Source: an uncultured Clostridia bacterium (GTDB lineage Bacteria; Bacillota; Clostridia; Oscillospirales; Acutalibacteraceae). Taken from it: 64,000 nucleotides of DNA. How positions within the stretch are numbered: the first letter of the stretch is position 1; every line of letters starts with the position of its first letter. Below are positions 49,585 to 60,036 of this stretch, piece by piece. Below the pieces are notes generated by a model. It ran no database searches. It was not told where the DNA came from and was given only the letters and a program-made list of their open reading frames with translations. Position numbers and translations under genes: made by a program. The stretch spans positions 1 to 64,000 of the forward strand of contig CALWDJ010000004.1 in assembly GCA_944376655.1 (NCBI GenBank), read 5' to 3'.

Positions 49585-50607
49585 ATGGCGACAGATATAG
49601 GAATAGATTTAGGTTCATCAAAAACGGTTATATTCTCAAGCTCAAAGGTTGTTCTCGAACTGCCTAATGTCGTCACGGTTGACAGTGAGACATGGGAGCC
49701 GGTGTATTTCGGCGAAAAGGCGAAGCAGACCATAGGCAGAACGCCGGACAGTCTTGTATGTGTTTTTCCGATTGAGCGCGGGATTATATCTGATTACGAC
49801 ATAGCCGAAATAATGCTTAAAAACTATATGCAGCAGGCATTCGGCAGCAGGATTATGCGTCCGCGCATAATGGCAACGCTTCCGGCGGGACTTACCGAGC
49901 TTCAGCATCACTCGCTTTCAAACGTTGTAGAGTCGGCAGGAGGAAGGAACATATCGGTAATAGAGGGGCCGCTCGCGGTCGCATTCGGACTCGGACTTGA
50001 TTTCTCAAAGCCGAGAGGCTCGCTTATTGTTGATATCGGAGCGGGTACGACCGATATCGCCGTTATATCCCTCGGCGGAATAGCGGTCTGCGAGTCGTTT
50101 AAAACCGCTTCTTCCGACCTTGATACACAGATAATAAGATATGTCCGTAAGGAGTATAACATAGAAATAGGACCTCTTACCGCTGAAATGATAAAAATAA
50201 AGGTTGGCTCCGCGGTAAAAAGAGATATTGAAATCGCTATTGTCGCAAAGGGAAGAAATGTGTTTTCCGGACTGCCGGAGAGCTTTGAAATATCCTCGGG
50301 CGAGGTTTTTGATGCTATTAACGAAACGGTGGAAACCATCTGCAACGCGGTAAGGCAGGTGCTGAACCGCACCGACCCCGACCTTGTTGCCGACATAACC
50401 GAGGACGGTATGTATCTTACTGGCGGCGGCTCGCAGTTAAGCGGAATGGAAGCGAGACTTCAGAAATACCTCGGGATAGAGGTTCATGCGCTTGACGACC
50501 CGTCGCACAGCGTTGTAAAGGGCGCGGCGGTGGCGCTGAAAAATCCGCAGCTGCTTAAGAACGTCGATTATCAGCTCCGCTCAATCAAGGAGCTTGCCGT
50601 TGAATAA
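49585..50607 (+). CDS. mreB: MreB-family cell-shape actin homologue
   Basis: A 340-residue actin-like ATPase that guides cell elongation. GIDLGSSKTV (phosphate 1), PLAVAFGLGLDF, LIVDIGAGTTDIAVISLG (phosphate 2) and LTGGGSQLSGM (adenosine) are intact. No mreC/mreD follow, so it could be an Mbl/MreBH-type paralogue instead of the mreBCD gene. GGAAGGA precedes the ATG. The aromatic operon leader starts 25 nt downstream. Confidence 0.9.
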   Translation: MATDIGIDLGSSKTVIFSSSKVVLELPNVVTVDSETWEPVYFGEKAKQTIGRTPDSLVCVFPIERGIISDYDIAEIMLKNYMQQAFGSRIMRPRIMATLPAGLTELQHHSLSNVVESAGGRNISVIEGPLAVAFGLGLDFSKPRGSLIVDIGAGTTDIAVISLGGIAVCESFKTASSDLDTQIIRYVRKEYNIEIGPLTAEMIKIKVGSAVKRDIEIAIVAKGRNVFSGLPESFEISSGEVFDAINETVETICNAVRQVLNRTDPDLVADITEDGMYLTGGGSQLSGMEARLQKYLGIEVHALDDPSHSVVKGAAVALKNPQLLKNVDYQLRSIKELAVE

Positions 50608-50632
50608 GCTGGCGGATAAGCAAAGATTTTTG

Positions 50633-50661
50633 TTGACAAAATAAAGATAATGTTATAAAAT
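50633..50661 (+). promoter_or_regulatory. Promoter of the aromatic amino acid operon
   Basis: TTGACA (50633-50638), 17-base spacer, TAAAAT (50656-50661). The TSS is expected near 50668, giving an untranslated/leader region of about 190 nt before the first structural gene. Confidence 0.75.
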
Positions 50662-50692
50662 GATAAGAGACTTTAAGGAAAGGGTGGGCAAT

Positions 50693-50758
50693 ATGTCCGT
50701 ATACGCTATGTATCGATTTTATTACTTTAATACGGACTGCCTGTATACCAGAGCTTAA
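50693..50758 (+). CDS. Leader peptide rich in Tyr and Phe (aromatic operon attenuator)
   Basis: A 21-codon ORF beginning MSVYAMYRFYYFN and ending before TAA at 50756-50758. Five Tyr (codons 4, 7, 10, 11, 18) and two Phe (9, 12) make up a third of it; six of the seven lie within codons 4-12, including the run Tyr-Arg-Phe-Tyr-Tyr-Phe (50711-50728). The GGGTGGG ribosome site is well spaced (about 5 nt). It follows a strong promoter and precedes a terminator, in front of a complete Phe/Tyr biosynthesis operon. Role by analogy: ribosome stalling on uncharged tRNA-Tyr/Phe favours antitermination. Experimental evidence is lacking. Confidence 0.85.
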   Translation: MSVYAMYRFYYFNTDCLYTRA

Positions 50759-50840
50759 GGTTTTCTTTCAGCTTTAAGATGTACGGACAGCCCGCAATCG
50801 CTCATGCAATTAAGCAGGAACGTATTGCGGGCTTATTTTA
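50733..50840 (+). promoter_or_regulatory. Attenuator RNA with antiterminator and terminator structures
   Basis: Terminator: AGCCCGCAAT (50789-50798) pairs with ATTGCGGGCT (50824-50833), followed by TATTTTAT. Antiterminator: 50733-50746 can pair with 50781-50794 (12 of 14 positions, two wobbles), with a nested 7-bp hairpin 50754-50760/50772-50778, occupying six bases of the terminator left arm. Early leader codons (50695-50701, GTCCGTA) can pair with 50731-50737 and also with 50782-50789, competing with the antiterminator. Confidence 0.75.
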
Positions 50841-50858
50841 TGGAAATGGGTGATTTGA

Positions 50859-52043
50859 ATGATCAACGGAAGAATGACCGAACTCGGAAAAAAGCGCTCG
50901 GTCATAAGGGAAATTTTCGAGTATGCCAAGACAAGAAAGGCAGAAATAGGCGACAGCAAAGTATTTGATTTCAGCATAGGAAACCCGAGCGTTCCGGCTC
51001 CCGCCGCCGTTACCGAGGCAATGAAAAGGCTTATAAACGAGACTGACCCGGTGCAGCTTCACGGGTACACCTCCGCTCAGGGCGACGCCGGAGTAAGAAA
51101 GGCGATTGCCGATAACGTAAAGTCGCGCTTTGATTTTGACGCCGACCCGAATCTTATTTATATGACCTGCGGCGCCGCGGCCTCGCTTACGGTAACGCTT
51201 AACGCAATCGTAAACAGCGGAGATGAAATAGTGGTGCTGGCGCCTTATTTCCCGGAATACCGTGTTTTCGCCGAAAAAGCGGGCGCGGCGGTTGTCGAGT
51301 CTCCATGCAGAGAGGGCGATTTTCAGATTGACTTTGAGGCGCTTAAAAAGGCGGTTACCTCAAAAACAAAGGCGGTTATAGTAAACTCACCGAACAATCC
51401 CACCGGCGCTGTTTTTTCGGAGGATACAATCAGAGAGCTTGCGCTGCTGCTTGAAAACCGTCAGCGTGAGTACGGAACCGATATATACATAATAGCGGAC
51501 GAGCCGTACAGGGAGCTTGTTTACGGTGCCGATGTTCCTTATATTCCAAAGTTTTATAAAAACACCGTTGTCTGCTATTCGTACAGCAAGTCGTTCTCAC
51601 TGCCCGGCGAGCGTATAGGCTATATACTTGTTTCGCCTGAATGTAAGGACTGCGGCGAGCTTTACGCCGCGGTCTGCGGAGCGGGCAGGGCTCTCGGCTT
51701 TGTCTGCGCGCCGAGCCTTCTTCAGTATACTGTAAGAGACTGTGTAGATGTAAAGCCCGACCTTGAAACCTATAAGACGAACCGTGATATATTTTACGGC
51801 GCGCTTACTTCATACGGATATACCGTAGTACCGCCGGACGGCGCGTTTTACCTTTTTGTAAAATCACCCGAGCCGGACGCCTACGCTTTCTGCGAGCGCG
51901 CAAAGAAATATGAGCTTCTGCTCGTTCCGGGCGATGATTTCGGATGTAAGGGCTATGTGCGCATATGCTACTGCGTATCGCGCGAGCAGATAGAAAACTC
52001 TCTTCCGGCGTTCAAGGCGCTTATCGAAGAATATAATAAATAA
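50859..52043 (+). CDS. Class I/II PLP aminotransferase (probable aromatic aminotransferase)
   Basis: A 394-residue fold-type I aminotransferase. PLP-Lys in SYSKSFSLPGERIGY (about 245-259), NSPNNPTGAVF and IIADEPYRELVYG are conserved, and the C-terminal Arg region RICYC lies near the end. As first gene of an operon that makes prephenate and arogenate-pathway intermediates, it likely transaminates phenylpyruvate and 4-hydroxyphenylpyruvate (or prephenate). Aspartate aminotransferase is the alternative name. It follows the attenuator terminator by about 19 nt; GGGTGA is the ribosome site. Confidence 0.88.
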   Translation: MINGRMTELGKKRSVIREIFEYAKTRKAEIGDSKVFDFSIGNPSVPAPAAVTEAMKRLINETDPVQLHGYTSAQGDAGVRKAIADNVKSRFDFDADPNLIYMTCGAAASLTVTLNAIVNSGDEIVVLAPYFPEYRVFAEKAGAAVVESPCREGDFQIDFEALKKAVTSKTKAVIVNSPNNPTGAVFSEDTIRELALLLENRQREYGTDIYIIADEPYRELVYGADVPYIPKFYKNTVVCYSYSKSFSLPGERIGYILVSPECKDCGELYAAVCGAGRALGFVCAPSLLQYTVRDCVDVKPDLETYKTNRDIFYGALTSYGYTVVPPDGAFYLFVKSPEPDAYAFCERAKKYELLLVPGDDFGCKGYVRICYCVSREQIENSLPAFKALIEEYNK

Positions 52044-52055
52044 CCGGTGGTAAAT

Positions 52056-53159
52056 ATGACTGAACTGGAAAAGGCAAGAAATGAGATAAACAGGATCGAC
52101 AGCCGCATGGCGGAGCTTTTTGAAGAGCGTATGGCGGCTGTAAAGACCGTCGCGGAGTACAAAAGGAAAAACGGAATAAGGGTCACCGACCAGGCGCGTG
52201 AGGCTGAGGTCATAGCGCGCAATTCGGCACTTGTGAAAAGCGAGACCGTAAGGCCTTATTATGTCAGCTTTCTTCAGAATAATATGGAGCTGTCGAAGGC
52301 GTATCAGCACCGTCTGCTTGAGGGTATGCGGGTAGCTTACAGCGGCGTGGAGGGCGCGTTTGCCAATATCGCCGCCAGCCGTATTTTTCCTGACGCTAAA
52401 GCGGTCTCCCATTCCGATTTCAAAACAGCGTACGATTCGGTCGTCAACGGCGAATGTGACTGCGCCGTTCTTCCGATTGAAAACAGCCATAACGGCGACG
52501 TGGCTCAGGTAATGGATCTTACCTTTTTCGGAACGCTCTATATAAACGGAATTTACGATATTGAGGTAGTTCAGAACCTTCTCGCCGTAAAAGGTACGAC
52601 TATGGACGAGGTAAAGCGTGTAATAAGTCACCCGCAGGCGCTCGGCCAGTGCGCGAAATATATAAGAGAGCACGGCTTTGAGCCGGTCGAGGCGGTCAAT
52701 ACCGCCGTTGCGGCAAAGCAGGTAGCGGAGTTCGGCAGACACGATACCGCGGCGATAGGAAGCGACGAGGCGGCGGCAAAGTTCGGCCTTAAAAAGCTCG
52801 AGGCACATATAAACGAAAGCGGAAACAATACGACGCGCTTCGCCGTTTTCTCGAAAACGCCGAAGACCTCCGCCGAAAAGGACAATCAGTTTATAATGCT
52901 CTTTACCGTATCAAATGAGGCGGGCGCGCTCGGCAAGGCGATAAACACGATAGGAAAGCACGGCTTTAACCTGCGCGCGCTTAAATCCCGCCCCACAAAG
53001 GAGCTTATCTGGAGCTATTATTTCTACGCTGAGGGCGAGGGCAATATAAACAGCGAAAAAGGCAGAGAAATGATAGAGGAGCTCAAGGAAAACTGCAGCA
53101 CCCTGCGGATTGCCGGCAGCTTTGAAAAGGAAATTATACTTAGGGGGAGCGAAAAGTGA
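52056..53159 (+). CDS. pheA: Bifunctional chorismate mutase/prephenate dehydratase (P-protein)
   Basis: A 367-residue fusion. Residues 1-~90: AroQ-type chorismate mutase (NEINRIDSRMAELFEERMAAVKTVAEYKRKNG); ~95-285: prephenate dehydratase (AYSGVEGAFANIAASRIFP, SHPQALGQC and NTTRFAVF); ~290-367: ACT domain with LKSRPTKELIWSYYFYAEGEG (ESRP-type), for phenylalanine feedback inhibition. ATG 52056 is chosen with CCGGTGG upstream. Catalyses chorismate to phenylpyruvate. Its end overlaps aroB by 4 nt. Confidence 0.96.
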   Translation: MTELEKARNEINRIDSRMAELFEERMAAVKTVAEYKRKNGIRVTDQAREAEVIARNSALVKSETVRPYYVSFLQNNMELSKAYQHRLLEGMRVAYSGVEGAFANIAASRIFPDAKAVSHSDFKTAYDSVVNGECDCAVLPIENSHNGDVAQVMDLTFFGTLYINGIYDIEVVQNLLAVKGTTMDEVKRVISHPQALGQCAKYIREHGFEPVEAVNTAVAAKQVAEFGRHDTAAIGSDEAAAKFGLKKLEAHINESGNNTTRFAVFSKTPKTSAEKDNQFIMLFTVSNEAGALGKAINTIGKHGFNLRALKSRPTKELIWSYYFYAEGEGNINSEKGREMIEELKENCSTLRIAGSFEKEIILRGSEK

Positions 53160-54166
53160 TTTTACCCGTAAAAACCTCGTCGGGCGGATATAATATTTAT
53201 CTTGAACGGGGCGCTCTTTTAAAAGCAGGGGAATATTTCAACCTTGACCGCAGAGTGCTTGTCGTGACCGACAGCGGAGTGCCCAGCCAATATTCAGAAA
53301 CAGTCGCAAAGCAGTGCAAAACCCCTTTTATCGTGACCGTGCCTGAGGGAGAGACCTCGAAATGCTTTGATGAGTATAAAACACTTTTGTCCGCGCTTGT
53401 GGATAACGGCTTTACCCGCAGCGACTGCGTTGTGGCGGTAGGCGGCGGCGTTGTCGGCGATATGGCGGGCTTCGCCGCGGCAAGCTATATGCGCGGAATT
53501 TGCTTTTACAATATCCCAACGACTGTGCTTTCGCAGGTCGATTCATCGGTCGGGGGCAAGGTGGCGATTGATTTTGGCGGGTACAAGAATATTGTTGGCG
53601 CGTTTTATCCGCCGTCCGGCGTAATTATTGACCCCGATACGCTTAAAACGCTTCCCGCGAGACAGATTTCAAACGGGCTTGCTGAGGCGCTTAAAATGGC
53701 GCTGACCTCTGACCCGGAGCTTTTTGAGATATTTGAAAAAGGAAATGCGGTAAAGGAAATAGATACCGTAATAGAGCGTTCGCTTAAAATAAAGCGCTCT
53801 GTTGTTGAGCAGGACGAAAAAGAGGGCGGTCTCCGCAAAATACTTAATTTCGGTCATACTCTGGCTCACGCGATTGAGAGCCAGAACGGTATGCAGAACC
53901 TTTACCACGGCGAGTGCGTGGCGCTCGGTATGCTGCCGATGTGTTCGGAAAAAGTGCGGAAAAGACTGGCGCCTGTTCTTGAAAGCCTTAACCTTCCTGT
54001 CAGCACCGATATTGACGCGAAGGCGGTTATCGACGCGGTGCGGCATGACAAGAAAATGTCCGGCGATAAGATAACCGTTATTTATGTTCCGGAAATAGGC
54101 AGCTATGAAATGAAAAAAATGCCGTTCGGCGAATTTGCGGACGGAATCAAGGAGACATTCGCATGA
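53156..54166 (+). CDS. aroB: 3-dehydroquinate synthase
   Basis: The 336-residue NAD- and metal-dependent second shikimate enzyme. VAVGGGVVGDMAGFAAASYMRGI, PTTVLSQVDSSVGGKVAIDFGGYKNIVGAFY and LNFGHTLAHAIE (metal His) are diagnostic. GTG start overlaps the pheA stop; GGGGAG upstream. Overlaps aroC by 4 nt (ATGA). Confidence 0.97.
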   Translation: MILPVKTSSGGYNIYLERGALLKAGEYFNLDRRVLVVTDSGVPSQYSETVAKQCKTPFIVTVPEGETSKCFDEYKTLLSALVDNGFTRSDCVVAVGGGVVGDMAGFAAASYMRGICFYNIPTTVLSQVDSSVGGKVAIDFGGYKNIVGAFYPPSGVIIDPDTLKTLPARQISNGLAEALKMALTSDPELFEIFEKGNAVKEIDTVIERSLKIKRSVVEQDEKEGGLRKILNFGHTLAHAIESQNGMQNLYHGECVALGMLPMCSEKVRKRLAPVLESLNLPVSTDIDAKAVIDAVRHDKKMSGDKITVIYVPEIGSYEMKKMPFGEFADGIKETFA

Positions 54167-55254
54167 AAAATACGTTCGGCAGCTCAGTGTCGTTAACTCT
54201 GTTCGGGGAAAGTCACGGCGCCGCGATAGGAGCGGTTATCGACGGAATCGCTCCCGGAATAAAAATAGATGAGGATTTTATCCGCAGTCAGCTTTCCTTG
54301 CGCCGCCCGGTAGGGTTGATTTCCACTCCGAGGGTCGAGCCTGACGAGTTTGTTATCGAAAGCGGAGTTTTTGAGGGGAAAACCACCGGAACGCCGATAT
54401 GTATTTTGATTCCGAACGTCAATACAAAATCAGAGGATTACAGCGAGATAAGAAGCAAGGCGCGCCCGGGACACGCCGATTATACGGCGTATGAAAAGTA
54501 CCACGGGTTTGAGGATTACCGCGGAGGCGGTCATTTCAGCGGCAGGTTAACAGCCGCTGTCGTGGCGGCGGGCGCGGTAGCGCTTTCGGCGCTTAAAGGA
54601 AAAGGCATAAATATAGGCACTCATATCGCAAGGCTCGCCGGAATTGCCGACAGAGGCTTTAAAGATTACGAAAGTGATATTAAAAAACTTTCGGAAATGC
54701 AGTTTGCTGTATTTGATACGGCGGCGGCCGAAAAAATGAAAGAGGAAATTATTGCCGCTAAAAATGTCGGGGACAGTGTGGGCGGAGTGCTTGAGACCGC
54801 TGTTACGGGACTTCCCGCCGGAGTGGGCGAGCCGTGGTTTGACAGTGTGGAAAGCCTTTTGTCGCACGCGCTCTTTTCTGTTCCCGCCGTAAAAGGCGTG
54901 GAATTCGGCGGCGGCTTTTCGCTCTGCAATATGCGCGGAAGTCAGGCAAACGACCCGTTAAGAACCGAAAACGGTAAAATATTTACCCTTACAAACAACA
55001 ACGGCGGTATAAACGGCGGCATCACCAACGGTATGCCGGTTGTTTTCCGCTGCGCGGTAAAGCCTACTTCCACAATACACATCAGTCAGCAGACGGTTGA
55101 TTTTATAAATATGGAAAATGTCGATTTTCTCGCCGGCGGACGGCACGACCCCTGTATTGTTCACCGTGCGAGGATAGTGGTTGACAGTATTACGGCGCTT
55201 ACCTTATGCGATATTTTAAGCGCGAGATTCGGAACGGATTGGTTGGCGGAATAA
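54163..55254 (+). CDS. aroC: Chorismate synthase
   Basis: The 363-residue FMN-dependent last enzyme of the common pathway. GESHGAAIGAVIDG at the start (residues 14-27), RPGHADYTAYEKYHGFEDYRGGGHFSGR and the C-terminal RHDPCIVHRARIV are family signatures. Start overlaps aroB stop as ATGA; ends one base before the aroE-aroK start (TAATG overlap). Confidence 0.97.
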   Translation: MKNTFGSSVSLTLFGESHGAAIGAVIDGIAPGIKIDEDFIRSQLSLRRPVGLISTPRVEPDEFVIESGVFEGKTTGTPICILIPNVNTKSEDYSEIRSKARPGHADYTAYEKYHGFEDYRGGGHFSGRLTAAVVAAGAVALSALKGKGINIGTHIARLAGIADRGFKDYESDIKKLSEMQFAVFDTAAAEKMKEEIIAAKNVGDSVGGVLETAVTGLPAGVGEPWFDSVESLLSHALFSVPAVKGVEFGGGFSLCNMRGSQANDPLRTENGKIFTLTNNNGGINGGITNGMPVVFRCAVKPTSTIHISQQTVDFINMENVDFLAGGRHDPCIVHRARIVVDSITALTLCDILSARFGTDWLAE

Positions 55255-56507
55255 TGGAATACGGTTGCATTGGGGAAAAGCTGTCGCACAGCTTTTCAAA
55301 AATAATTCATTCGCAGCTTGCCGATTATGATTATGAGCTTTGTGAAATACCGAAAGACGGGCTTGATTCATTTATGCGAAAAGCCGATTTTAAGGCGATA
55401 AATGTGACAATACCTTATAAGCAGGCGGTAATACCGTATCTTCACGTTATAAGCGATACGGCGCATAAAATAGGCGCGGTAAACACGATTGTCAATAACG
55501 GCGGTAAGCTGTACGGCTATAACACCGATTTTTCGGGTATGCGCTCCCTTATAAAAAAGCAGGGGGCGGAGCTTGAAGGCAAAAAGGTGCTGGTTTTAGG
55601 CAGCGGAGGCACCTCAAAAACGGCGGCTGCGGTTGCTGAAAGTCTCGGTGCGGCAGAGGTTTACAGGGTATCGAGAAGCGGACGGGACGGCGCGGTTACT
55701 TACGGAATCGCTCTTTCCGAGCATATTGACGCACAGGCAATAATAAATACCACGCCCTGCGGAATGTATCCGAATATAGGAGCTTCGGCGGTTGATATAT
55801 CCCTTTTCAAAAATCTTTACTCCGTGACCGACGCGGTTTATAACCCGCTTTGCTCGGAGCTTGTCATATCAGCAAGGCAAAAGGGGATAAATGCACGGGG
55901 CGGACTTTATATGCTGGTGGCGCAGGCGGCTTTTGCGGTCGAGAAGTTCACCGGCGAGACAGTTTCGGAGGATAAAATTCAGTCGGTCTATGAGAAAATA
56001 CTCCGTGATAAAAAGAATATCGTACTGATAGGCATGCCGGGCTGCGGGAAAACAACAATAGGTAAAAAGGCGGCTGAAAGACTCGGTAAGAAATTCGTTG
56101 ATACTGACGATGTGATAGTCAAGACTGCCGGAATGTCAATTCCCGATATTTTTTCAAGGTACGGCGAGGAAAAATTCAGGGATATTGAATCCGAAGTTAT
56201 CAAAAAGGTTTCCGGAATGCAGTCCGCAGTGATAGCCACAGGCGGCGGAGCGATTTTGAGAGAAAATAATGTTTCGCTTTTGAAGGAAAACGGATTCGTG
56301 GTCTTTATCGACCGACCGGTTGAAAAGCTGGTTACAACAGATGACCGTCCGCTTTCGTCGAACCGTGAGCTGCTTTTAAAGCGGTACACTGAAAGATACG
56401 GAATATACTGCGGCGCGGCTCAGGCAAAAATTGAAGCGGCTGATGACCTTCTGAAGAATATAAACACGGTAACAGAGGTTTTTCTTAATGAAAATTTTAG
56501 TGATTAA
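55254..56507 (+). CDS. Shikimate dehydrogenase-shikimate kinase fusion (AroE-AroK)
   Basis: A 417-residue bifunctional protein. Residues ~1-258: shikimate dehydrogenase (IGEKLSHSFSKIIHSQL, VTIPYKQAVIPYL, GAVNTIVN, NTDFSGM, VLGSGGTSKTA). Residues ~262-417: shikimate kinase with Walker A GMPGCGKTT (about 266-274), FVDTDDVIVK and RDIESEVI, ending in the RPLSSNR lid region. Separate genes are more common; this fusion catalyses two consecutive steps, dehydroshikimate to shikimate to shikimate 3-phosphate. ATG 55254 shares a base with the aroC stop. Confidence 0.95.
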   Translation: MEYGCIGEKLSHSFSKIIHSQLADYDYELCEIPKDGLDSFMRKADFKAINVTIPYKQAVIPYLHVISDTAHKIGAVNTIVNNGGKLYGYNTDFSGMRSLIKKQGAELEGKKVLVLGSGGTSKTAAAVAESLGAAEVYRVSRSGRDGAVTYGIALSEHIDAQAIINTTPCGMYPNIGASAVDISLFKNLYSVTDAVYNPLCSELVISARQKGINARGGLYMLVAQAAFAVEKFTGETVSEDKIQSVYEKILRDKKNIVLIGMPGCGKTTIGKKAAERLGKKFVDTDDVIVKTAGMSIPDIFSRYGEEKFRDIESEVIKKVSGMQSAVIATGGGAILRENNVSLLKENGFVVFIDRPVEKLVTTDDRPLSSNRELLLKRYTERYGIYCGAAQAKIEAADDLLKNINTVTEVFLNENFSD

Positions 56508-56943
56508 CGGACCGAATATAAATATGCTCGGTATAAGAGAGCCGGGAATTTACGGAAAAGACAGCTACGAGACGCTTTGCGCCAATATAAGACAATACGC
56601 GGACAAAAACGGTGCCGTTGTAAAGCTGTACCAGTCGAACCACGAGGGCTGTCTTGTTGATGAAATACAGGCGGCATACGGGGTGTTTGACGGAATAGTC
56701 ATAAATCCCGGCGCCTATACTCATACGAGCGTCGCCCTGCTTGACGCTGTAAAGGCTGTTTCGATTCCAACGGTCGAGGTGCATATATCCGATATTTCCT
56801 CGCGCGAGGAATTCAGGCAGATAAGCTATATCCGCGCCGCCTGCGTCAAAACAATAAGCGGACACGGCATAGACGGCTATACCGAGGCGATACAATTCCT
56901 TATAGATAATTACGGTAAAAAAAATGATAGTCACGGTCGGTAA
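56488..56943 (+). CDS. aroQ: Type II 3-dehydroquinate dehydratase
   Basis: A 151-residue dodecameric type II dehydroquinase. INGPNINMLGIREPGIYG with catalytic Tyr 23, YQSNHEGCLVDEI, INPGAYTHTSVALLDAV and VEVHISDISSREEFR are all present. It catalyses dehydroquinate to dehydroshikimate. Overlaps the AroE-AroK gene by 20 nt and aroA by 20 nt, indicating coupled translation. Confidence 0.96.
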   Translation: MKILVINGPNINMLGIREPGIYGKDSYETLCANIRQYADKNGAVVKLYQSNHEGCLVDEIQAAYGVFDGIVINPGAYTHTSVALLDAVKAVSIPTVEVHISDISSREEFRQISYIRAACVKTISGHGIDGYTEAIQFLIDNYGKKNDSHGR

Positions 56944-58135
56944 GAGCGCGGCGGCGGGCTCTGTAAAGGCGCCGCCCTCAAAAAGTATGGCGCACAGGTA
57001 TCTTATCTGCGGCGCCCTGTCGTCGGGCAGTGAAATCAAAGGTGTTGATTTTTCCGAGGATATTAAGGCTACCCTCGGCTGCCTTGAATCGCTCGGAGCC
57101 CGTGTGAAAATTGAAGACAATTCTGTTTTTATCGGCGGCGTCGCGACAGCAGGGAAAACGGTTAAAGAAAATCTATTCTGCGGAGAAAGCGGCAGCACAC
57201 TGCGCTTTATGATTCCGCTTTGCCTGCTTGAGGATAAAAAATTCACCCTTTCGGGCACGGAGAGGCTCTTCAGCCGCTCTCTTTCGGTGTATGACGATAT
57301 CTGCCGCTCGCAGGGTATAGAGTTCAAGCAGGATAAAAAAAGCGTCACGCTCAAAGGAAGGCTTGCCTGCGGCGGTTACGCTGTGCGGGGAGATATATCG
57401 AGCCAGTTCATAAGCGGACTGATGTTTGCTCTGCCGCTGCTTGCCGGCGACAGTACTGTTGATATTACCGGCGCGCTTGAGAGCGCCTCTTATCTAGGTA
57501 TGACGGTAAAGGCGCTTGCTGATTTCGGTGTGCGTGTAAAAAGGGCGGACGAGCATACCTTTTACATAAAAGGCTCACAAAGCTATAAGCCGAGAGAGCT
57601 TGCGGTTGAGGGTGATTATTCAAACGCCGCGTTTTTCTCCGCGCTTAATTTGACCGGCGGCAACGTTTCGGTAAGGGGACTCAGCAAAAAAACTTCGCAG
57701 GGAGATGCGGTTTATCCGGAGCTTTTTGAAAAAATTGCAAAAGGTACGCCGGATATTGATATATCTGACTGTCCGGATTTAGGTCCGGTGCTTATGGCGG
57801 CTGCCGCTGTTAAAAACGGTGCGCACTTTACCGGAACGCACCGCCTTAAAATTAAGGAAAGCGACCGCGGTGCGGCAATGGCTGAGGAGCTTTTAAAGTT
57901 CGGCTGCCATACAGATGTCGGTGAGAACGAGATAACAGTTCATAAATGCGATTTGAAAACTCCGGAACTTCCGCTCTACGGTCATAATGACCACAGAATT
58001 GTAATGTCGCTCGCCGTGCTCTGTACTCTTACGGGCGGCACCATATACGGCGCTGAAGCGGTTGCAAAAAGCCTGCCGGACTTTTTTGACCGTCTCAGCT
58101 TACTCGGCGTTGATATTAAGGTGGAAAATAAATGA
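56924..58135 (+). CDS. aroA: 3-phosphoshikimate 1-carboxyvinyltransferase (EPSP synthase)
   Basis: A 403-residue EPSP synthase. PPSKSMAHRYLICGAL (residues ~14-29), LFCGESGSTLRFMIPL, DISSQFISGLMFALPLL and KIKESDRGAAMAEEL are conserved. It lies in the coupled cluster: overlaps aroQ by 20 nt and tyrA by 4 nt (ATGA). Sensitivity to glyphosate cannot be judged with certainty. Confidence 0.96.
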   Translation: MIVTVGKSAAAGSVKAPPSKSMAHRYLICGALSSGSEIKGVDFSEDIKATLGCLESLGARVKIEDNSVFIGGVATAGKTVKENLFCGESGSTLRFMIPLCLLEDKKFTLSGTERLFSRSLSVYDDICRSQGIEFKQDKKSVTLKGRLACGGYAVRGDISSQFISGLMFALPLLAGDSTVDITGALESASYLGMTVKALADFGVRVKRADEHTFYIKGSQSYKPRELAVEGDYSNAAFFSALNLTGGNVSVRGLSKKTSQGDAVYPELFEKIAKGTPDIDISDCPDLGPVLMAAAAVKNGAHFTGTHRLKIKESDRGAAMAEELLKFGCHTDVGENEITVHKCDLKTPELPLYGHNDHRIVMSLAVLCTLTGGTIYGAEAVAKSLPDFFDRLSLLGVDIKVENK

Positions 58136-58992
58136 AATTAAGTAAGGATATGAATATTCTGATTGTCGGTCTGGGGCTTCTCGGCGGCAGCTATGCGGAA
58201 GGATTAAAAAAGCAGGGATTTAAAGTAAGTGCGATTACAAAGGAAGAGTCGTCTGTTGATTTTGCTCTGGAAAAAGGAATTATTGATTACGGCACTGTAA
58301 AAATTGAGCCTGAACTGATAGCAAACGCCGACCTTACGGTGTTCGCGCTTTATCCGCATATTTTTATAGAATGGATAAAGGAAAATCAGCAGTATTTTAA
58401 AAGCGGGGCGGTAATAACCGATGTAACGGGAGTAAAAGGCTGTATCGTAGGAAAAATACAGAGCATTTTAAGGGAAGACGTGGAATTTATCGCCGCTCAC
58501 CCTATGGCGGGACGTGAAGTCTGCGGCGTTGAAAACAGTACCTCTGAAATATTTAAGGGCGCTAACTATATAGTCGTTCCTACCGAGAAGAACACACCTG
58601 ATGCAATCGAGCTTTGCAGGGATTTGGGTGAGAAGCTCGGTTTTTATCAGGTGGCAGAGCTTTCGGTTGAAATGCACGACCGTATGATAGGCTTTTTATC
58701 ACAGCTGACTCATTGTATTGCCGTATCGCTTATGTGCTGCAACAGTACGCCTGATCTTGAAAAGTATACCGGCGACTCATTCAGGGATTTAACAAGGATT
58801 GCACGCATAAACGATGAAATGTGGAGCGAGCTTTTTCTTGACAATAAAAATGTTTTGCTTGCCGAGATGGAGCGCTTCAGAAGCTCTTTTGACGAGCTGT
58901 ACGAAAAGATAAATACAGGTGACCGTGAAGGAATGCGGGAAATGATGCGGCTTTCCACAAGTCGCCGCAAGCTTTTTGATAAAATATTGTAA
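58132..58992 (+). CDS. tyrA: Prephenate/arogenate dehydrogenase
   Basis: A 286-residue NAD(P)-dependent dehydrogenase. N-terminal Rossmann motif IVGLGLLGGSYAEGL (residues ~10-24), catalytic region AHPMAGREVCGVENS with the conserved His, and the all-helical C-terminal domain. It makes 4-hydroxyphenylpyruvate (or tyrosine from arogenate). It lacks an ACT domain, so tyrosine control probably acts through the DAHP synthase or at transcription. Follows aroA by overlap and precedes the DAHP synthase by 12 nt. Confidence 0.95.
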   Translation: MKLSKDMNILIVGLGLLGGSYAEGLKKQGFKVSAITKEESSVDFALEKGIIDYGTVKIEPELIANADLTVFALYPHIFIEWIKENQQYFKSGAVITDVTGVKGCIVGKIQSILREDVEFIAAHPMAGREVCGVENSTSEIFKGANYIVVPTEKNTPDAIELCRDLGEKLGFYQVAELSVEMHDRMIGFLSQLTHCIAVSLMCCNSTPDLEKYTGDSFRDLTRIARINDEMWSELFLDNKNVLLAEMERFRSSFDELYEKINTGDREGMREMMRLSTSRRKLFDKIL

Positions 58993-59004
58993 GGTGAAAC
59001 AGTT

Positions 59005-60036
59005 ATGAATCTTAAATTTTCAAGAAAGCTGCCGATACCGCAGCAGATAAAAACCCGCTATCCTGTGACTGAGGAGCTGGCACGTGTTAAGGCGGAGAGA
59101 GACGAGGAGCTTAAAAAAATATTTTCAGGTGAATCGGAGAAATTCATTCTGATAATAGGTCCATGCTCAGCGGACAGCCGGGAACCGGTGCTTGACTATA
59201 TTTCACGTCTGCGTAAAGTGCAGGATGAAGTAAAAGATAAAATAATTATAGTTCCTCGTATTTACACAAACAAACCACGCACCACCGGTGACGGTTACAA
59301 AGGAATGCTTCATCAGCCGGATCCTGATGAGAAGCCTGATATGCTGCAAGGTATAGTGGCAATAAGAGACCTCCATATGGCGGCGCTCAGAGACTATGGC
59401 TTTACCTGCGCCGATGAGATGCTATATCCTGACAATCACCGATATCTTTCGGATTTGCTCGCTTATGTCGCTGTCGGCGCTAGATCTGTTGAGAATCAGC
59501 AGCACAGGCTTACCGCAAGCGGTCTTGATATTCCGGTCGGAATGAAAAATCCCACAAGCGGCGACCTTTCGATAATGATGAATTCAATAACCGCGGCACA
59601 GCACCCGCATACATTTATATACCGCGGCTGGGAGGTTACAAGCGAGGGAAATCCGTATGCTCACGCGATACTTAGGGGATATATTGATTTTGCCGGAAAA
59701 AGCGTATCAAACTATCATTATGAAGACCTTTTGAAGCTGTATAATCTTTATGCCGAAAGCGGCCTTAAAAATCCGGCGGCGATAGTTGATACTAATCATG
59801 CCAATTCCGGAAAACAGTATCTTGAACAGATACGGATAGCTAAAGACGTTGTTTACAGCCGCAATCATAATAACGATATCCGCTCGCTTGTCAAAGGACT
59901 GATGATTGAAAGCTATATCGAGGACGGAGCGCAGAAAATCGGTGAGCATATATACGGAAAGTCAATAACAGACCCGTGTCTCGGCTGGGAAAAATCCAAA
60001 AAACTGATTTGTAAGATTGCGGATACACTTAAATAA
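59005..60036 (+). CDS. aroF: 3-deoxy-7-phosphoheptulonate synthase (class I, AroG type)
   Basis: The 343-residue first enzyme of the pathway, condensing PEP and erythrose 4-phosphate. Class I AroG-type marks: KFILIIGPCSADSREPVLDYISRL, PRTTGDGYKGMLHQPDP, GARSVENQQHRLTASGLDIPVGMKNPTSG, and IVDTNHANSGKQYLEQ. It is the last biosynthetic gene of the operon, giving the operon all seven common-pathway activities. Feedback by Phe or Tyr is expected by class but the isoform cannot be told from sequence here. Confidence 0.95.
   Translation: MNLKFSRKLPIPQQIKTRYPVTEELARVKAERDEELKKIFSGESEKFILIIGPCSADSREPVLDYISRLRKVQDEVKDKIIIVPRIYTNKPRTTGDGYKGMLHQPDPDEKPDMLQGIVAIRDLHMAALRDYGFTCADEMLYPDNHRYLSDLLAYVAVGARSVENQQHRLTASGLDIPVGMKNPTSGDLSIMMNSITAAQHPHTFIYRGWEVTSEGNPYAHAILRGYIDFAGKSVSNYHYEDLLKLYNLYAESGLKNPAAIVDTNHANSGKQYLEQIRIAKDVVYSRNHNNDIRSLVKGLMIESYIEDGAQKIGEHIYGKSITDPCLGWEKSKKLICKIADTLK

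Follow-up and report, generated by a model that had tools for sequence, protein, structure and literature searches.

A candidate leader peptide attenuator ahead of phenylalanine and tyrosine synthesis genes in uncultured Clostridia

Positions 50633–50858 of the window (i.e. the whole 64,000-nucleotide stretch of DNA analyzed) are situated between an mreB-like gene (49585–50607) and an operon of nine genes for phenylalanine and tyrosine synthesis (50859–60036). The gene order of the operon is aminotransferase, chorismate mutase-prephenate dehydratase, AroB, AroC, AroE-AroK, AroQ, AroA, prephenate dehydrogenase and class I DAHP synthase, and none of the nine is a trp gene. An earlier note on this DNA had placed a leader peptide and a terminator directly upstream of an operon that makes Phe and Tyr, and the content of the nine genes bears this out. 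The aminotransferase is of the PRK06836 type and may function as an aromatic or prephenate aminotransferase. AroE-AroK is a fusion of shikimate dehydrogenase with shikimate kinase in one protein of 433 aa (55206–56507). The DAHP synthase (59005–60036) is a class I enzyme of the E. coli AroFGH type (TIGR00034).

Table 1. Positions of the leader elements and of the downstream operon genes in the window
Feature	Position	Strand	Remarks
Promoter-like site TTGACA-17-TAAAAT	50633..50661	+	11/12 consensus matches
Leader ribosome site and start region, containing segment 1	50681..50701	+	
Leader peptide ORF, 21 codons, 5 Tyr and 2 Phe	50693..50758	+	MSVYAMYRFYYFNTDCLYTRA
Aromatic codon cluster Y4 to F12, proposed stalling region	50702..50728	+	
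Segment 2, putative antiterminator 5′ arm, inside leader ORF (codons 14–18)	50734..50746	+	
Segment 3, putative antiterminator 3′ arm	50781..50793	+	
Intrinsic terminator, stem and U-rich tail	50789..50839	+	
PLP aminotransferase, PRK06836 type, operon gene 1	50859..52043	+	
Chorismate mutase-prephenate dehydratase (pheA)	52053..53159	+	
aroB, aroC, aroE-aroK fusion, aroQ, aroA, tyrA, class I DAHP synthase	53156..60036	+	

The leader region displays each of the parts that had been described from the sequence alone. A promoter-like site is present; sites of this kind occur by chance at a mean of 0.8 in shuffles of the 341-base region and the site is weak evidence by itself. A promoter-like site is also found less than 85 nt from the leader start in all 41 leaders aligned from related genomes, at a permissive threshold and without a chance control. 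A well-placed ribosome site is seen by eye as the purine-rich sequence AGGGTGG at 50681–50687. The leader ORF runs from an ATG at 50693 to a TAA ending at 50758, and its translation, MSVYAMYRFYYFNTDCLYTRA, has Tyr at codons 4, 7, 10, 11 and 18 and Phe at codons 9 and 12. The count of five Tyr and two Phe in 21 codons, with six of the seven in codons 4–12, is exact, and codons for the end products of the operon are thus clustered in the leader. The in-frame conservation described below suggests that the ORF is translated.

Downstream of the ORF, an intrinsic terminator lies between the leader and the first gene of the operon. Its stem is formed by AGCCCGCAAT (50789–50798) and ATTGCGGGCT (50824–50833), is followed by a U-rich tail and has a hairpin dG of −24.1, which agrees with the Rho-independent terminator claimed earlier. 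A simple terminator scan lists no terminator at 50789–50839, probably because the arms are more than 8 nt apart. Segment 2, within the ORF, can pair with segment 3, and the last five nucleotides of segment 3 (50789–50793) are shared with the 5′ arm of the terminator; the two helices are therefore mutually exclusive. Segment 1 consists of GGGC (50686–50689) and GTCCGTA (50695–50701) and is complementary to segment 2. The predicted fold of the RNA at 50663–50842 has an energy of −54.7 kcal/mol (z = −3.99), and none of 200 shuffled sequences folds as well. The 1:2 helix is present in this fold.

Relatives were gathered by means of the first operon gene and consist of 43 named metagenome-genome loci and 61 genomes of the same genus, with extra upstream stretches. 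An orthologous aminotransferase is found, as we read the matches, in 51 of the 61 genomes; 50 of these loci were fetched and two begin at a contig end. A leader rich in Tyr and Phe precedes the same gene in 39 of the 48 genus genomes with readable upstream DNA and is absent in nine. Among the named loci the leader is present in seven of 43 (L002–L008), the closest being L008, whose aminotransferase protein is 96% identical. It is absent in the other 36 (proteins 54%–63% identical), with fewer than 135 nt available upstream in two of these. Automatic picking gave 53 leaders, of which twelve had no segment 2 motif and were discarded by eye before counting; all twelve belong to the 36 named loci that have no leader. 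Removal of duplicates left 41 distinct leaders, which were aligned. L066 (a near-duplicate) and L070 (misaligned) are retained in alignment A1 and excluded from A2, the alignment used for the model.

The leader peptides range from MSVYSAYRFYYYNTDCLHA to MFGKEFYFYYYFSTDCLPSFKNAAE and MKTNYFFYYFIVDCPYAL. Codons of the form T[A/T][C/T] make up 313 of 950 (0.329) in the reading frame of the leader, as compared with 92 of 909 (0.101) and 129 of 909 (0.142) in the other two frames, and there are no Trp codons among the 950. At alignment columns 64–75, T occupies the first codon position in 40, 41, 41 and 39 of the 41 leaders; at least 40 have A or T at the second position, and at least 40 have T or C at the third. 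This pattern means that Phe and Tyr exchange for each other and that synonymous changes occur. Aromatic codons in frame together with the lack of Trp codons are what would be expected of a sensor of Tyr and Phe that does not sense Trp. The start codons as picked are 25 ATG, 10 GTG and 6 TTG, and the peptide ends drift. The comparison in relatives that the earlier note had called for thus shows Tyr/Phe codons and a terminator that are conserved while other sequence drifts. The occurrence in 39 of 48 genus genomes speaks strongly for function.

The leader is also linked to pheA. Within L045–L074, from which three further loci were excluded because the contig ends beside the gene, pheA is the next gene in 21 of 21 loci with a leader and in two of six without one (Fisher p = 0.0009). 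L052 and L063, of the same genus, have pheA adjoining the aminotransferase gene and no leader; in L052, inspection by eye shows a promoter-like site near the gene. In L053, L054, L058 and L059, also of the genus, the aminotransferase gene directly follows the mreB-like gene, the leader is absent and pheA is not within the fetched DNA. A SAM riboswitch is located in L058 at 2883–2977, about 200 nt past the leaderless aminotransferase gene.

Both helices are conserved by pairing across the 41 leaders. For the antiterminator, 76.0% of cells are paired (71.0% in shuffles) and the covariation score is 0.242 (0.157 in shuffles); for the terminator the values are 87.6% (82.5%) and 0.316 (0.229). The proportion of cells paired, the number of double-change cells and the covariation score each exceed 500 of 500 shuffles for both helices, although the shuffles ignore relatedness and beating all 500 is not a probability. 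Cells paired and covariation also exceed every slid version of both alignments, with 24%–42% of cells paired in the slid antiterminator alignments. Three of five measures for the antiterminator thus beat all 500 shuffles and two do not: the number of 2:3 pairs with double changes is reached by 208 of 500 shuffles, and the number of pair types by 135 of 500. Sliding by −2 gives 35 double-change cells as against 32 at the true register, and sliding by −1 gives eight pairs with double changes as against seven. At five of the 13 antiterminator pairs, between 14 and 34 of the 41 sequences lack pairing (columns 86:166, 90:162, 94:158, 95:157 and 96:156, in 21, 34, 18, 14 and 22 sequences, respectively), and two of these five are also unpaired in the window's own RNA. 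The 2:3 duplex has z < −1.64 in 35 of 41 leaders. Pairing is perfect in L078 (GGACTGTCTT with AAGACAGTCC), in L086 (GGGCTGTCTT with AAGACAGCCC) and in L007 (GCGGACC with GGTCCGC).

These features suggest the following sequence of events. RNA polymerase would start a few bases past position 50661 and a ribosome would translate the leader. When Tyr or Phe is short, the ribosome would stall in codons 4–12 and leave segment 2 free; segment 2 would pair with segment 3 as it emerges, and the resulting antiterminator would capture the 5′ arm of the terminator, with the operon being transcribed. When Tyr and Phe are both plentiful, the ribosome would reach the stop codon and cover or pass segment 2, and the terminator would then form and end transcription. 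In untranslated RNA, segment 2 could pair with the leader start region (1:2), which would also favor termination. It is highly probable that the element is a ribosome-mediated transcription attenuator of the pheL/trpL type that senses charged tRNA-Tyr and tRNA-Phe, and it would very probably turn on the Phe/Tyr genes only at a shortage of Phe/Tyr. Translation, stalling, the switch and the direction of its response are here read from the anatomy and evolution of the region.

The spacing of the leader is consistent with this scheme. The last aromatic codon ends 5, 6 or 8 nt 5′ of segment 2 in 41 of 41 leaders, L070 being misaligned there, and this fits a stalled ribosome that halts short of segment 2. 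A ribosome was placed on the leader with an assumed footprint whose 3′ edge is 16 nt past the first base of the P-site codon, and the RNA downstream of it was folded up to the end of segment 3. With the ribosome on some aromatic codon, the predicted fold has at least six 2:3 pairs in 41 of 41 leaders, and the best aromatic codon gives 8 to 12. If the ribosome is placed such that the last aromatic codon occupies the A site, most leaders have fewer 2:3 pairs. For a ribosome at the stop codon, zero 2:3 pairs are built in, as segment 2 is excluded from the fold. In long leaders segment 2 would then lie behind the ribosome and could meet segment 1. The 1:2 helix is weaker, its duplex having z < −1.64 in 31 of 41 leaders, with ten failing this cut, and the protector step is the least certain part of the scheme.

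The ORF might instead encode a small peptide with a function of its own, apart from the switch. A DCL-like stretch is conserved and 39 of the 41 leaders read segment 2 in the same phase, which agrees with this explanation. However, L065 and L071 (perhaps through one event) read segment 2 in a different phase and keep the aromatic cluster in frame, the bases of segment 2 change together with their pairing partners, the start codons vary and the peptide ends drift. Such a peptide is very improbable, and conservation of the DCL peptide for its own sake is disfavored. We give equally little credence to a metabolite riboswitch or a protein-bound leader in which the ORF is incidental. Stable alternative structures are present, but the spacer that separates segments 2 and 3 is variable both in length and in sequence, unlike an aptamer, and T[A/T][C/T] codons in frame, with Phe and Tyr exchanging at fixed places, point to translation.

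The usual clostridial device, a tRNA-binding T-box antiterminator, could have diverged past recognition at this locus. The same genome displays ten T-box matches, seven over the cut-off, and T-boxes precede DAHP synthase genes in other Clostridia. The next gene can be named for five of the ten: leuA, pheS, asnS, thrS and asnB, the last having a match below the cut-off. Yet the covariance model of the T-box leader (RF00230) has no match at the leader even at E = 10, while other T-boxes of the genome reach E = 2.5e-30; this is in accord with the earlier statement that no T-box stem I or T-box sequence is visible. A scan of 50560–50920 down to E = 10 gives four chance-level matches, none of them a T-box, and no match at gathering score to the Rfam 15 families (RF01743 included) is found in the 64,000-base window. 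A T-box also needs no translated ORF, yet the aromatic codons are conserved in frame. A diverged T-box is hence most improbable. That the ORF arose by chance over an ordinary terminator of the mreB-like gene is exceedingly improbable, since the element is conserved across genera having different first genes and shows covariation, even though short ORFs are common and the terminator could also end mreB-like transcription. The own-genome locus L096, on contig 2, has a T-box ahead of pheS, and the same genome has the leader peptide at the Phe/Tyr operon. Charging of tRNA-Phe would be read by the predicted T-box at pheS and by the ribosome at the biosynthetic operon.

A covariance model of the attenuator was built from 39 leaders. 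It matches 10 of 150 sampled genomes of the family, 31 of 295 of the order, 13 of 391 of the class and 4 of 348 of the phylum, and each of the four counts contains the own genome; the filters applied in scoring these samples were stricter and miss weak matches. In family members of other genera, the leader is located ahead of aminotransferase-pheA in L111, L112 and L114, ahead of DAHP synthase-pheA in L107, L108, L109 and L113, and ahead of pheA in L110. Thirty order hits were fetched (G317 was left out) and 29 of the 30, spread over seven families, are followed by Phe/Tyr genes; outside the genus the count is 26 of 27. The downstream genes in the order are aminotransferase-pheA, DAHP synthase-pheA, pheA-aroB or DAHP synthase-tyrA. 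L141 (E = 6.7e-4) was set aside, its fetched DNA having no relatives of the window's operon proteins. Leaders of the order loci were sought at a fixed offset; because of contig ends this offset does not hold for L115, L127 and L137, whose peptides were left unread. L134, L138 and L140 show weak aromatic clusters of four, four and three in nine.

In the class outside the order, L143–L146 (E < 1e-8) lie ahead of DAHP synthase-pheA or pheA-aroB. There are six weaker class hits. Five (L147–L151, E > 1e-3) have no visible aromatic neighbor and were set aside, no relatives of the operon proteins being present in the fetched DNA; the sixth is L152. The phylum hits L153–L155 (E = 6.7e-4 to 8.4e-4) look false on the same grounds. 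The leader thus persists while the first gene of the operon changes. The window element would represent a new sequence family of a known attenuator mechanism, common to relatives in several families.

At L152 the leader peptide reads MRHDSYYYAYSFYYFSPKD, and it is followed by genes for a DAHP synthase of the B. subtilis type and a prephenate dehydrogenase-like protein. This locus prompted a survey of 120 loci of the DAHP synthase family PF00793 (L156–L275), of which 30 were taken automatically (167 of 196 genomes matched), 30 were chosen handles and 60 were chosen places; the sample is not random and five of the 30 chosen handles are of the genus of L152. A leader was scored as a short ORF with at least five Phe/Tyr in nine codons and a ribosome site. 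It is found ahead of 29 of the 120 clostridial loci in this partly chosen sample, and two of the 120 have almost no upstream DNA; the same test is passed by two reverse complements out of 120 and, on average, by 0.7 of 120 mononucleotide shuffles. Examples are L186, L188, L190, L240, L242 and L263, and within the genus of L152 the peptides resemble one another (L186, L188, L190, L191 and L193). The 866 codons of the 29 leaders include 161 Phe, 130 Tyr and 4 Trp, with one Trp codon each in L268, L272, L273 and L274. A terminator follows the leader in 27 of 29 loci, and one is also present in 59 of 91 regions without a leader.

Of the 120 loci, 100 were scanned against Rfam, and eleven of these show a T-box upstream, on the strand of the gene (L159, L160, L163, L166, L170, L173, L182, L184, L232, L239 and L266), at the place taken by an aromatic leader in other species. 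Of the 29 leader loci, 23 were scanned and the only T-box is at L159, a doubtful case. The leader call at L159 is probably false: the gene has a T-box ahead of it, and the ORF has no terminator behind it. The window's model at E = 0.01 matches one of the 29 leaders (L152, E = 0.005). Because of this and of the different sequence, the leaders at DAHP synthase genes seemingly form a family unrelated to the window element. The second family accompanies the B. subtilis type of DAHP synthase, and the enzyme of the window's operon is of the AroFGH type instead.

E. coli pheL-pheA and pheM-pheST are attenuators, and in the textbook attenuator the 1:2 arm is not generally described as surrounding the ribosome site and start of the leader itself. 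The window element resembles the E. coli systems in having a short leader rich in the relevant residues ahead of pheA, and an antiterminator and a terminator that exclude each other. It differs from pheL and pheM in that its leader mixes Tyr and Phe codons that exchange with each other, has Phe/Tyr pathway genes downstream and matches no Rfam leader, and in that segment 1 surrounds the leader ribosome site and start. The pheL/trpL-like layout recognized in the earlier note is upheld overall, by conservation and by a covarying antiterminator that the note did not contain; the position of the 1:2 arm departs from that layout.

The same note held leader attenuators to be rare in Firmicutes. The occurrence of aromatic leaders at 29 of 120 partly chosen DAHP synthase loci speaks against this, as do earlier reports or proposals for His, ilv, Leu/phe and shikimate genes, in so far as the sources cited here describe them. 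His leader attenuators are proposed for Bacillus hisZ and hisS* (PMC2965389) and for Peptostreptococcaceae, Erysipelotrichales and the B. cereus group (PMC9413887). As described there, these likewise use leader peptide attenuation where others use T-boxes; the amino acid, genes and lineages differ, and the likeness noted is one of description. A Leu-rich attenuator peptide of the S. aureus ilv-leu operon, with genetic evidence, is described in PMC5794164; it is also a Firmicute leader peptide with terminator and antiterminator, but it senses Leu and precedes another operon. The Leu/phe leader of Lactococcus lactis (RF01743, as given in PMC2864571) is a leader RNA in a Firmicute whose model has no match at the window leader.

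Closest in kind, by description only, are aromatic uORFs that precede shikimate genes. One is uORFC-13-1 of Acholeplasma, located upstream of aroF (PMC8632094); two more are F/Y uORFs from a set of five genomes that includes Clostridium novyi (PMC6429828, legend of Fig. 6). From these descriptions, they may belong to the second family, at DAHP synthase genes, rather than to that of the window. The tyrosine operon of the B. cereus group is described as having a T-box (PMC2494555), and a 2005 study of Actinobacteria reports that no conserved RNA element was seen upstream of operons for Phe or Tyr (PMC1262725). A published description of the window element was not found in searches of the open-licence PMC literature.

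A broader reading is offered tentatively, as one that may well be right but that we would not yet favor over its contrary: ribosome-mediated sensing of aromatic amino acids may be a general clostridial alternative to the T-box that arose at least twice. Under it, the Phe/Tyr element would occur in at least seven families of one order and beyond; a seemingly unrelated Phe/Tyr(/Trp) leader would serve, in other families, the DAHP synthase of the B. subtilis type; a T-box and a leader would take each other's place at the same genes; and the start region would double as a protector arm, such that untranslated RNA terminates. The two leader families make replacement between T-box and leader peptide testable by comparison. 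The window element could be proposed as a new Rfam family. With a predicted T-box at pheS and a leader at the operon, two sensors of tRNA-Phe charging may coexist in one genome. Several of the named relatives come from animal guts, as judged by record titles, and for uncultured Clostridia the element would provide a concrete and testable control of Phe and Tyr synthesis.
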